A program made the position numbers and the translations under genes. From positions 124,001 through 188,000 of the forward strand of contig CALJAK010000002.1 in assembly GCA_938027595.1 (NCBI GenBank): a stretch of 64,000 nucleotides of DNA, written 5' to 3'. This stretch comes from an uncultured Thermoproteales archaeon (GTDB lineage Archaea > Thermoproteota > Thermoprotei > Thermoproteales > Thermoproteaceae). Positions 3,104 to 34,897 of this stretch are shown here, one piece after another. The notes under the pieces are model-generated. The model had not been told where the DNA came from. It saw only the letters and a program-made list of their open reading frames with translations, and did not search any database. The first letter of the stretch is position 1, and each line of letters begins with the position of its first letter.

Positions 3104-3389
3104 CGAAAAACTTCGGCGCTTCGATCCTCTCTCCCCTACAGCGAGGACAACGGCTGGGTTTCTTCAACCTCTCTCTATCTCTAAACTCGTATCCACATGA
3201 TTTACAAACTGGGGGAATCACGCCCAGTCTGTAACCCATTCTCTTCAAAGTCTTCTTTACATGTTCCAACTCGTCATACAACTCGCCCGGCTTTAAATCT
3301 GTGTTGATTAAGACTTGTAGTTGATACACAGTCAACGGCTCGCTGGCGGATAGGAGGATCTTAATTATCCGCTCTCTCGTAGTCTCCAT
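3090..3389 (-). CDS. Winged-helix/zinc-ribbon predicted transcriptional regulator
   Basis: A 99-residue protein with an N-terminal HTH (residues 1-55; RERIIKILL ... EPLTVYQL pattern) and a C-terminal zinc ribbon (C-x2-C at 62-65, then C-x2-C at about 80-83). This fusion is the arrangement of a small archaeal family described as HTH plus zinc ribbon predicted regulators. The ATG shares one base with the upstream gene's stop codon, so the two are translated as a unit. Target genes are unknown. Confidence 0.75.
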
Positions 3390-3691
3390 TACTTCTCCAC
3401 TACTGCAGATTGAAGCCAGAGAGCTTTATAAACGCCACCCGGCTTGAGTACGGCAAACGTAAAGATGTGCGTCACTCCGCCTCTACTAGCTTCAATTCTC
3501 ATGAATCTCGTGTCTTCAATCTTCTCCACTGGGTCTACGTTTGCGTCTAGAAGCTGGACGTCAGTCACTACATAACCCAGCGTCTTTATGCTTTCCGCAA
3601 CACAATCGGCCAGTTGGCGAGGCGTATCTCCCACACATTGATTCTTCTCAATCTGGCTCTTTACTCTGGCGTGTTCAATACTGTAGTCCAT
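3389..3691 (-). CDS. Conserved-looking hypothetical protein
   Basis: A 100-residue soluble protein with alternating strands and helices and no recognised domain. The ATG at 3691 lies about 22 nt downstream of a TATATAAAT element (3711-3717, read on the minus strand). That element abuts the D box of the predicted sRNA upstream, so sRNA and mRNA promoters are packed together. The next gene, an HTH/zinc-ribbon regulator, overlaps the stop codon by one base. Confidence 0.65.
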   Translation of the reverse strand: MDYSIEHARVKSQIEKNQCVGDTPRQLADCVAESIKTLGYVVTDVQLLDANVDPVEKIEDTRFMRIEASRGGVTHIFTFAVLKPGGVYKALWLQSAVVEK

Positions 3692-3713: not shown

Positions 3714-3766
3714 AAATCAGTCGCTCAGCCCTCTTCACATTTCAGACCTTGTAAGCGTCTTCACAA
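3714..3766 (-). ncRNA. Candidate box C/D guide sRNA
   Basis: Read 5'-3' on the minus strand: GTGAAGA (3764-3758, box C), 12-nt guide, CTGA (3745-3742, box D'), 3-nt spacer AAT, GTGAAGA (3738-3732, box C'), 11-nt guide, CTGA (3720-3717, box D). Element order, guide lengths and the 3-nt D'-C' spacer fit archaeal box C/D sRNAs. Both C boxes deviate from RTGATGA at the same base, which suggests paired drift rather than chance. The D' guide complements a 12-nt target containing CUUGUAA, the form of a tRNA-Thr(UGU) anticodon loop, placing the methylated base at U34; the D guide complements a D-arm-like GCUCAGCC. Targets are inference. An AT-rich promoter element lies about 22 nt upstream. Confidence 0.6.
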
Positions 3767-3795: not shown

Positions 3796-5925
3796 ATGAA
3801 AGCTATAGCCATAGTACTACTGCTTGTGGCAGTTTTCATTTTTCTCCTCCCCCCATCTGTCGTCAGACTTGCGGACCCATTCCACGGCCCGATGAAAGCC
3901 ATATATCGCCCACCTCCGCCGGCGCCGATAGAGAACTACGTGTTAACTATAGAGGCGGAGAGCGAGAGAGAGGCGTACTACAGATTGGGCTATGCACACG
4001 CTTACTATAGACTCTTCCAAATGGACGTAATGCGGCGCGTGGCGCAAGGTCGGCTCGGCGAGTTGCTGGGACCTGCAGCGTTAGACACAGACATATACTT
4101 CAGAACGCGGGGGCTCTACATATCTGCGGAAAAGAGCTGGCTCTACATAGAGTCGAACTTCCCAAACGTGGCTACGGTGGTTCTAGAGTACGTCAATGGA
4201 GTTAATGACTTCATTACACAAAACCCACCACCAATTGAGTATTTGATACTGGGTAAAAAGCCTGAGCCGTGGGCCCCCACAGACGTCATCGCCATAGTCA
4301 AGCTAGTGGCTTGGAGTCTCAGCGGGGGCGAGGCGGACTTGGAGTTGAAACGGTTGGCGGACAGACTTGGCCAGCGATTTCTAGAAATTGCGCTGAGTCG
4401 GAGACAAAACACGCCGATACTCCCCCGCAAGGCGGTCTTCTCGCCACCCCGAGACGCCGGTGACAATTGGATAATATCGCCTCACGCCAGTAACAATTGG
4501 ATAATATCGCCTCAACTGTCGGCCACGAACTGCGCCATGTTGGCGAACGACCCCCATCTCTTGCTGTCGGCGCCGCCCATTTGGATATTTCAGAGAGTGA
4601 AGACCCCCGGGCGTGAGGTGGTGGGTGTGGCGTTTCCAGGCACGCCGCTTGTGACGATAGGCACCAACGGCCACGTGGCGTGGGGCTTCACTAACACTGG
4701 CATCGACGTGATTGATTATTACTATTACGTCTGGGACGGCGACAGGTATTTCCACAACGGCACGTGGAGAGAGGCAAATAGGCGCGTGGAGGAGTTCAAG
4801 ACATGCGATGCGGACGGCCGGTGTTCTGTGTGGAAAGTGACAGTGTTGGAGACCGTGCACGGACCGGTGGTGGAGTATGGGGGGACGAGATACGCCATGA
4901 GGTGGCTCGGCAACAACATAACGCTGGAGGCCGTGGCGATGTACGAAATTAACAGAGCTAAAAACTTGTCGGACTTCCTAAAGGCGTTGAGGTACTTCAT
5001 TACCCCCAGCCAAAATGTGGTTTACGCAGACCTCAACGGCACCGTGGCATATTTCGCCAGTGGCTATCTGCCGCTGAGAAACGGCGGCTATCTGCCCTTC
5101 AACGGCTCCAGGGGGGAGGGGGAGTGGGGGGGTTACGCGTGGCTCCCCACTGTGTTGAGTCAGATCAACCCACCGTATTTAGCCACCGCTAACAACAAAG
5201 TGGCGGACGCAGACGTATATCTACAGTGGAGGTGGGCAGATAGATACCGCCACGACAGAATTGTCGAACTCCTCGCCGAGCGGTTGGGGAGAAGTGGGAA
5301 AGTCACTGTGCGAGACGTCATGGAGATACAGCTAGACGTGGTGGATATCTCATGCCGAGACGTCAAGCTGTTGTTGAAAACACTCGGCGGGGAGAGTAGC
5401 GAGAAATTGTTGAGAGAATTGGAGAATTGGGACTGCGCCATGATCCCCACCTCGACGACCGCAGCTAAATACGCCACCTTCCTATACAACCTCCAGAAGA
5501 GAGCGTGGGAGGACTTCGGCGTTTCTCTAACGCTGGTACCTCTGGAAGTCACCATTGAGGCGATTAAAAGCGGGCTGCTAGACCGGAGAATTGTGGAAGA
5601 GGTGGCAGCCGAGGCGTTGAAGACGTCAAAGCCGTGGGGCGAGATGCACGTGTATGACATACGCCACGTGATGGGGAGTGTGTTCCCCAGTTTCAACTAT
5701 AGAAAGACAGAGGCACCCGGCAGTTGGTTCACTGTGAACGTGGCGCCGGGCTCCCCAGGTTCTGAATTTCGAGTCTCTCAAGGACCCAGCGTCAGACTTA
5801 TCGTGGCATTTTGCGACGGGATTTACATGTCGCTGCCGGGCGGACCGGACGGAGATCCACTGAGCCCGCTGTATGACGCCATGTATCTACCTTGGGTTAG
5901 GGGAGAATATGTCAAAGTGGGTTAA
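3796..5925 (+). CDS. Penicillin-acylase-family N-terminal nucleophile amidohydrolase
   Basis: A 709-residue precursor of the penicillin/acyl-homoserine-lactone acylase family. Such enzymes cleave themselves into alpha and beta chains and use the new N-terminal Ser as nucleophile to hydrolyse amides. Residues 1-25 form a hydrophobic signal or membrane anchor, so the enzyme probably acts outside the membrane. The conserved (G/A)SNNW motif marking the beta-chain start is at 231-235, with Ser232 the likely nucleophile, followed by NDPHL, PG.P and GHVAWG-type motifs. Unusually, a 30-bp segment is tandemly duplicated here (4455-4514), giving a second copy AGDNWIISP just before ASNNWIISP; the first copy lacks the Ser. 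The ATG has a TATA-like element about 25 nt upstream. The substrate is unknown. The next gene overlaps its end by 17 bp. Confidence 0.88.
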   Translation: MKAIAIVLLLVAVFIFLLPPSVVRLADPFHGPMKAIYRPPPPAPIENYVLTIEAESEREAYYRLGYAHAYYRLFQMDVMRRVAQGRLGELLGPAALDTDIYFRTRGLYISAEKSWLYIESNFPNVATVVLEYVNGVNDFITQNPPPIEYLILGKKPEPWAPTDVIAIVKLVAWSLSGGEADLELKRLADRLGQRFLEIALSRRQNTPILPRKAVFSPPRDAGDNWIISPHASNNWIISPQLSATNCAMLANDPHLLLSAPPIWIFQRVKTPGREVVGVAFPGTPLVTIGTNGHVAWGFTNTGIDVIDYYYYVWDGDRYFHNGTWREANRRVEEFKTCDADGRCSVWKVTVLETVHGPVVEYGGTRYAMRWLGNNITLEAVAMYEINRAKNLSDFLKALRYFITPSQNVVYADLNGTVAYFASGYLPLRNGGYLPFNGSRGEGEWGGYAWLPTVLSQINPPYLATANNKVADADVYLQWRWADRYRHDRIVELLAERLGRSGKVTVRDVMEIQLDVVDISCRDVKLLLKTLGGESSEKLLRELENWDCAMIPTSTTAAKYATFLYNLQKRAWEDFGVSLTLVPLEVTIEAIKSGLLDRRIVEEVAAEALKTSKPWGEMHVYDIRHVMGSVFPSFNYRKTEAPGSWFTVNVAPGSPGSEFRVSQGPSVRLIVAFCDGIYMSLPGGPDGDPLSPLYDAMYLPWVRGEYVKVG
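4455..4514 (+). repeat. 30-bp in-frame tandem duplication at the acylase processing site
   Basis: Two 30-bp units (4455-4484 and 4485-4514) differ at only two positions among the central 29 bases. Each encodes ten residues ending in NWIISP. The second unit carries the Ser-Asn-Asn-Trp nucleophile motif; the first has Gly-Asp-Asn-Trp. A recent slippage or unequal crossover fits the near identity. Confidence 0.9.
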
Positions 5926-17437: not shown

Positions 17438-17651
17438 TTTTCCCCACTGCGTAAGACTCGCCCACTTTCACAATTTCCACTTTTACTCTCTGCCCCACTT
17501 CTGCGTTTGGGACAAACACCACAAACCCGGCGACTTTCGCAACTCCATCACCCCTTCTAGACTTCTCCACAATTTCTACCTCCACTACGTCTCCCTCTTT
17601 GACTGGCTTCTGACCCCTCTTGCGCGGGGGTCCACCTCTTCTTTGATTCAT
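17424..17651 (-). CDS. TRAM-domain RNA-binding protein
   Basis: A 75-residue protein: a basic, Gly/Pro/Arg-rich N-terminus (residues 1-16) and one TRAM domain (VKEGDVVEVEIVEKSRRGDGVAKV ... VPNAEVGQRVKVEIVKVGESYAVGKI). Single-TRAM proteins of this size are abundant in archaea and are thought to bind RNA, acting like cold-shock chaperones. It overlaps the end of trpS tail to tail. A TTTATCG-like element lies about 26 nt upstream of the ATG. Confidence 0.92.
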   Translation of the reverse strand: MNQRRGGPPRKRGQKPVKEGDVVEVEIVEKSRRGDGVAKVAGFVVFVPNAEVGQRVKVEIVKVGESYAVGKITGV

Positions 17652-17711
17652 GAATCTGAGTTATCTACTATTCTCGATAAAGTTTTTAAAGTGATGCAAT
17701 AACGGCAGTGA

Positions 17712-17818
17712 GGGCCCGTAGCTCAGCCTGGTGGAGCGGCGGAAGAACGTCTGCCGAAGCTCTTAACCCGTAGGTCGTGGGAGGGGAAACCCCACGAATT
17801 CGAATCCCACCGGGCCCG
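17712..17818 (+). tRNA. tRNA-Lys(CUU) with two introns
   Basis: The acceptor GGGCCCG (17712-17718) pairs with CGGGCCC (17811-17817), with discriminator G at 17818 and a genomic CCA to 17821. Removing 16 nt (17743-17758, between positions 30 and 31) and 17 nt (17782-17798, between 53 and 54 in the T arm) gives a standard cloverleaf: D stem GCTC/GAGC, anticodon stem GCGGG/CCCGT, loop CTCTTAA with anticodon CTT at 17762-17764, T loop TTCGAAT. The introns are at non-canonical positions, as known in Thermoproteales. A TTTTTAAAG promoter element is centred about 26 nt upstream. Confidence 0.9.
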
Positions 17819-17835
17819 CCAGTTTTCTAAAGAGA

Positions 17836-17939
<104 letters not shown>

Positions 17940-34782: not shown

Positions 34783-34808
34783 TGAAGAGAAGGCGCCGGA
34801 GTCTTGAG

Positions 34809-34897
34809 TAGCCCGGCCGGGATTCGAACCCGGGCCACGGGGTCCAGAGCCCCGCATCCCTAGCCGGACTCCCCCTTGGCCGCTAGACGACCGGGCT
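34809..34897 (-). tRNA. tRNA-Gln(CUG) with a D-arm intron
   Basis: The acceptor AGCCCGG (34897-34891) pairs with CCGGGCT (34816-34810), discriminator A at 34809. The anticodon stem CGGGG/CCCCG encloses CTCTGGA with anticodon CTG (34847-34845), and the T arm is CCGGG-TTCGAAT-CCCGG. The D arm is too long by 15-16 nt. Removing 34861-34875 leaves a normal D arm, and a bulge-helix-bulge is visible (GCC/GGC helix with AA|G and TA|G bulges). A G run makes the exact boundary ambiguous by one base. An AAATTTTTTAA promoter element is about 29 nt upstream. Confidence 0.87.

Follow-up and report, generated by a model that had tools for sequence, protein, structure and literature searches.

We found that positions 3717 to 3764 on the minus strand most probably (with a probability of roughly 0.87) encode a dual-guide archaeal C/D box sRNA that would act on U34 of spliced tRNA-Thr(UGU) through its D' guide and on tRNA D-arms through its D guide. 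Positions refer to the window, by which we mean the whole 64-kb stretch of DNA analyzed, and the host assembly (1.24 Mb, 96.5% complete) belongs to the genus Pyrobaculum. The initial annotation had placed a C/D sRNA at 3714 to 3766, that is, the gene plus two or three extra flanking bases per side, and this identity is borne out by its layout and its conservation.

Read directly from the sequence, the minus strand from 3764 to 3717 is GTGAAGA CGCTTACAAGGT CTGA AAT GTGAAGA GGGCTGAGCGA CTGA. Box C (GTGAAGA, 3758 to 3764), which was aligned with 11 orthologous genes, is followed by the 12-nt D' guide CGCTTACAAGGT (3746 to 3757), with U34 of tRNA-Thr(UGU) as its predicted target, then by box D' (CTGA, 3742 to 3745; CTGA, CGGA or CAGA in the orthologues) and by a D'-C' spacer, AAT (3739 to 3741), that differs among orthologues. 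After box C' (GTGAAGA, 3732 to 3738) come the 11-nt D guide GGGCTGAGCGA (3721 to 3731), whose complement GCTCAGCCC lies in the D-arm of tRNA-Thr(UGU) and of other tRNAs and whose fifth nucleotide falls on U12, and box D (3717 to 3720), which is CTGA here and in 10 of the 12 genes and CCGA in the other 2. The C-D'-C'-D order and both D boxes are exact for an archaeal C/D box sRNA, and C and C' are one base off RUGAUGA. The available text of PMC4644070 gives as criteria for archaeal C/D sRNAs guides of 10 to 12 nt and a run of nine or more Watson-Crick pairs spanning the fifth position; the guides of 12 and 11 nt lie within this range, and the pairs number 11 at U34 of tRNA-Thr(UGU) and 9 at U12 of the tRNA D-arms. 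The annotated arrangement, with twin GTGAAGA boxes and 3 nt between D' and C', was confirmed both by this direct reading and by a scan of the two strands of the window, where it was the single match even with relaxed boxes (RTGANGA and CNGA), and it was absent from 200 first-order Markov copies of the window. Rfam at its gathering threshold detected tRNAs only in the window and no sRNA family, and a scan for sigma-70 promoters and terminators carries no meaning for an archaeon.

The two-guide sRNA was present in all 11 genomes of the genus examined, as 12 genes, two of them in P. oguniense. Their alignment spans 63 columns, within which neither the D' guide core GCTTACAAGG nor that of the D guide, GGCTGAGC, shows any change (12/12), while the outer guide bases and the spacer vary. 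A second match in G001 (L097), with neither a C box nor a second guide, was left out. Across the family, the pattern CTTACAAGGNCNGA was found in 12 of 19 genomes (11/11 in the genus, 1/6 in the genus g2 and 0/2 in g3), against three hits over the same 19 genomes for the reversed control, and BLAST with the sRNA region gave matches in 10 of the 19. That the stretch is chance or decayed sequence without a product has a next to negligible probability in view of its presence, with unchanged guide cores, in all 11 genomes.

The initial annotation had also suggested that the shared GTGAAGA might mark a special kink-turn, an idea that the relatives do not support. Among the 12 genes of the genus, box C reads GTGAAGA in 3 (G000, G004 and G005), RTGACGA in 8 and ATGGGGA in 1, box C' reads GTGAAGA in 11 and ATGAGGA in 1 (G004), and both boxes are GTGAAGA in G000 and G005 only. 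The box is also frequent in the genus, GTGAAGA-N9-13-CTGA having 201 hits in the 11 genomes and its reversed control 49. The host genome itself has 17 and 13, respectively, no clear excess, which limits the demonstrated enrichment to the relatives. We take the changed base of GTGAAGA to be 3b, in which case the 3b.3n pair after the two G.A pairs goes from U.U to A-U; the tandem G.A is kept by sequence, with the GA of GTGAAGA and the GA of CTGA both present. Studies of Kt-7 variants, in the part of PMC4382518 available, describe a Watson-Crick 3b.3n pair as preventing folding in metal ions, with G-C still folding in the presence of L7Ae, and archaeal C/D turns are, according to the accessible text of PMC5689011, mostly protein dependent already, with U.U favored. 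Since turns with a Watson-Crick 3b.3n pair can fold with L7Ae and archaeal turns mostly depend on protein in any case, the GTGAAGA turn should, by analogy, be an ordinary L7Ae-dependent kink-turn.

Against the spliced tRNA-Thr(UGU) of its own genome the D' guide forms 11 Watson-Crick pairs and one G-U pair, and the fifth nucleotide before box D' faces U34, so that the target first proposed from the fifth-nucleotide rule fits the genome's real tRNA. Both guides are complementary to this tRNA, and the D' guide has its best match there. The runner-up among the 26 tRNAs or part-tRNAs compared was Thr(CGU), with a run of 7 and a mismatch exactly at position 34, and only 3 of 5000 shuffled D' guides reached 11 pairs in the tRNA pool. 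By manual reading, the host tRNA-Thr(UGU) gene (L042, L123) contains two introns, and the spliced anticodon arm deduced from the gene would be GCCTTGTAAGCGG; because an intron splits the guide's target in the gene, only the spliced tRNA-Thr(UGU) pairs fully. In four relatives (G001, G003, G006 and G010) the gene is uninterrupted after the anticodon and reads CCTTGTAAGCGGG, which confirms the spliced target. Pairing within each genome covered 10 of the 12 genes, with intron-bearing tRNA genes joined manually and leaving out G002 (two matches unlike tRNA-Thr) and G008 (5' tRNA half not worked out), and all 10 D' guides kept at least 10 Watson-Crick pairs in a row with their own tRNA-Thr(UGU). 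The sRNA thus most likely directs the formation of Um34 in tRNA-Thr(UGU).

rRNA was rejected as a target, as no run was comparable to the tRNA match. Within the rRNA genes proper, Watson-Crick runs of the D' guide did not exceed 6 in either SSU or LSU, and those of the D guide reached 6 (SSU) and 8 (LSU). When flanks and G-U pairs were allowed, the D guide gave runs of up to 10, mostly G-U.

The D guide forms nine Watson-Crick pairs with G10 to C17a of tRNA-Thr(UGU) (GCUCAGCCC), with U12 at the fifth position and position 2 mismatched. It fits several other host tRNAs equally well: the 9-mer GCTCAGCCC occurs in 6 of 38 host tRNA matches, with a seventh gene (L044) carrying it just outside the scored match, and the 8-mer GCTCAGCC occurs in 10 of 38. 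Nine pairs in the tRNA pool were reached by 155 of 5000 shuffled D guides. In the comparison of each gene with its own tRNA-Thr(UGU), position 2 was mismatched in 9 of the 10 genes tested, pairing fell to 7 in G005, and the pairs in G003 and G010 included G-U. Its conservation indicates that the D guide is of importance, but complementarity by itself would allow more than one tRNA as its partner. The earlier suggestion that one sRNA modifies a single tRNA at two sites therefore holds insofar as the D-arm of tRNA-Thr(UGU) is indeed matched by the D guide, but, with equally good matches in several other tRNAs, this guide may not be specific to it.

If transcribed, the sRNA would, like archaeal C/D box sRNAs of about 50 to 60 nt in general, be expected to assemble with L7Ae, Nop5 and fibrillarin on its C/D and C'/D' motifs. 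The D' guide would then base-pair to the anticodon loop of tRNA-Thr(UGU) in its spliced form and place U34 in the active site, yielding Um34. The D guide would bind the 5' half of the D-arm in tRNA-Thr(UGU) and in other GCUCAGCC(C) tRNAs, with U12 at its fifth position, and might either methylate U12 in a group of tRNAs or help to hold or unfold the tRNA.

An exact-pattern scan of GTDB species genomes returned 14 stretches, 4 in Pyrobaculum, 3 in two Thermoprotei MAGs, 1 in a Desulfurococcales MAG and 6 bacterial, and the latter six were dropped as chance-like and unlike an sRNA. Among 81 genomes of the class, a pattern search matched 12, of which ten belong to the genus and two (G024 and G025) to g13. 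The g13 genes carry the guides in swapped order, ATGATGA-AGCTGAGCTATG-CGGA-TAT-GTGAAGA-GGCTTACAAGGG-CTGA, from which one copy departs slightly. Against tRNA-Thr(UGU) of G024 (L182), the second g13 guide forms 11 pairs with U34 at the fifth position, and the first forms 10 pairs plus a G-U with G10 at the fifth position. The outer base of the U34 guide changes together with position 41 of the tRNA, being C-G41 in the host and G-C41 in g13, and the D-arm guide of g13 reads through U17, which is present in g13 Thr tRNAs and absent from most other g13 tRNAs. Action at two sites of tRNA-Thr(UGU) is plausible, with partial support from this swapped-order relative. In the Desulfurococcales MAG SZUA-1508 (L059), the U34 guide GGCTTACAAGGG recurs in a C/D-like RNA whose second guide is unrelated.

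A model built from the 12 genes and run against the 81 class genomes gave strong matches in the genus only (E values of 7e-15 or better), and weaker ones in the genus g2 and the family f3, amid many near-chance ones. Within g2, four genomes have the guide CTTGCAAG and G013 has CTTACAAG, and in f3 the guides are CTTGCAAG (g8) or CTTGTAAG (g6). Retargeting of the g2 guide to tRNA-Ala(UGC) was considered and rejected: given the CUUGCGC loop of Ala(UGC) in G015, the guide still pairs better with tRNA-Thr(UGU), one G-U included. The second g2 guide, GACCGGGCGTG, had no convincing target among the host tRNAs or rRNAs. Candidate targets considered for the related guides in f3 were tRNA-Ala(UGC) and tRNA-Val(UAC); tRNA-Thr(UGU) was not found in the 69% of the f3 genome G072 that was read. 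By manual reading, the second f3 guide, TGGGCTAAG, matches a GCUUAGCCC D-arm with G15 at the fifth position. In g2 (L230, L232, L233, L235 and L236) the related sRNA lies in front of the 100-aa gene described below, but the two are on opposite strands, whereas they share a strand in Pyrobaculum.

The best-surviving alternative, whose chances we put not far below even, is that the D guide is a general U12 guide for many GCUCAGCC tRNAs and that its link to tRNA-Thr is incidental. The occurrence of its 9-mer and 8-mer complements in 6 and 10 of the 38 tRNA matches is as expected of such a guide, as is the poor fit of tRNA-Thr(UGU) itself in G005. Nevertheless, the mismatches at positions 1 and 2 leave 8 or 9 pairs only, and the g13 counterpart extends through a nucleotide, U17, that is typical of g13 Thr tRNAs and missing in most others. 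It is less probable, and on balance unlikely, that the sRNA has a single target, in which case the D' guide alone would work and the D guide would be an orphan with a chance likeness to D-arms. Such a division has precedents in Pyrobaculum sRNAs that act on tRNAs, where one guide has a target and the other has none (in the available portion of PMC7994747), and would suit a match that is the weaker of the two, is equaled by 155 of 5000 shuffles and is mismatched at position 2. An orphan, however, would hardly keep the core GGCTGAGC invariant in 12 of 12 genes in which the C box and spacers drift, and in g13 too the U34 guide is coupled with a D-arm guide that fits that group's own tRNA-Thr(UGU).

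A more speculative proposal, which we regard as doubtful, is that the wobble-U34 guide and the D-arm guide travel as one unit and that what is conserved is D-arm pairing as such, serving as an anchor or an unfolding aid for U34 methylation. The order would be U34 and then D-arm in Pyrobaculum and swapped in g13, resembling a circular permutation, and the D-arm nucleotide at the fifth position would vary from U12 (Pyrobaculum) to G10 (g13) and to G15 of the GCUUAGCCC D-arm (candidate f3 relatives). A different element was seen in G002 (G002:C1:1683899-1683921), where GTGAAGA-guide-CTGA with the guide GGCTGAGCTACG complements a tRNA D-arm with G10 at the fifth position; this is possibly a separate D-arm guide, going by its sequence.

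The sRNA gene sits in the gap between a 100-aa gene (MDYSIEHA..., ORF at 3389 to 3691, minus strand), which lies on the strand of the sRNA, 25 nt beyond its box D, and a divergent, putatively penicillin-acylase-like 709-aa gene on the opposite strand (ORF at 3796 to 5925, plus strand). The 100-aa gene neighbors 10 of the 12 sRNA genes of the genus and also accompanies the related sRNA in 5 genomes of the second genus, g2. Besides the host, seven copies of the sRNA in the genus have a homologue of the 709-aa gene nearby, and one adjoins each of the two copies that are without the 100-aa gene. The two P. oguniense copies (L102 and L110) have identical D' guide cores; one is beside the 100-aa gene and both are beside the 709-aa homologue. 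This proximity could be read as a sign that there is no free sRNA at all and that an L7Ae-bound kink-turn in the 5' leader of the 100-aa gene controls its translation, L7Ae control of leaders being known (from the available part of PMC6298567). We hold this to be very improbable, as G001 and G006b have no 100-aa gene within the flank examined, the related sRNA of five g2 genomes is on the opposite strand from it, and a leader element would have no need of two tRNA-complementary guides.

Other RNA genes were noticed during the analysis. ARAGORN called a tmRNA at 17595 to 17939 (minus strand), where Rfam instead recognizes an intron-bearing tRNA at 17838 to 17939; the tmRNA call is almost surely false, the host being an archaeon, and manual reading gives tRNA-Val(GAC) with two introns. 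The tRNA-Gln(CTG) gene at 34808 to 34881 (minus strand) has an extra ggagtccgg in its D-loop region, as does the other tRNA-Gln gene (L045), and this stretch is possibly a D-loop intron. Outside the window, at G000:C7:54810-55110 (L049), an intron-bearing tRNA-Ser gene has a second copy of its 3' half immediately alongside, reminiscent of a partial duplication or an integration scar.

Methylation of tRNA-Gln(UUG) in S. acidocaldarius is reportedly associated with Ziesche et al. 2004. As far as the available text of PMC7668247 goes, sRNA-guided methylation occurs there at U34 and G18, which resembles the present case in combining the wobble uridine and a D-loop site of one tRNA and differs in the tRNA and in the D-arm nucleotide; whether one or two sRNAs are involved is not stated in that portion. 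The part of PMC7994747 at hand cites Lui et al. 2018 for 526 sRNAs of six Pyrobaculum species, grouped into 110 families, and 16% of the guides have tRNA targets, position 34 included. Those families are similar in genus, box layout, guide lengths and the presence of position 34 among the targets, whereas their tRNA sRNAs, as described in the same excerpt, have one targeting guide and here both guides match one tRNA. The Pyrococcus sR50 RNA, a tRNA-Trp intron that guides Cm34 and Um39, likewise turns two guides of one C/D RNA on one tRNA, one of them at position 34, but it is intron encoded, whereas the present gene is free and intergenic and matches the spliced tRNA (same portion of PMC7994747). 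Our literature search, which did not extend to the family list of Lui et al. 2018 and is no proof of absence, turned up no paper naming a guide for U34 of tRNA-Thr(UGU).

Judged by its sequence, then, this is a real, conserved and ordinary archaeal C/D sRNA of a well-known kind, with a good tRNA target. It yields a concrete prediction for one named nucleotide, Um34 of tRNA-Thr(UGU), in cultured Pyrobaculum such as P. oguniense, and the repeated association of wobble and D-arm guides makes it possible to examine whether, in tRNA-directed sRNAs, the second of the two directs methylation, serves as an anchor or is an orphan.
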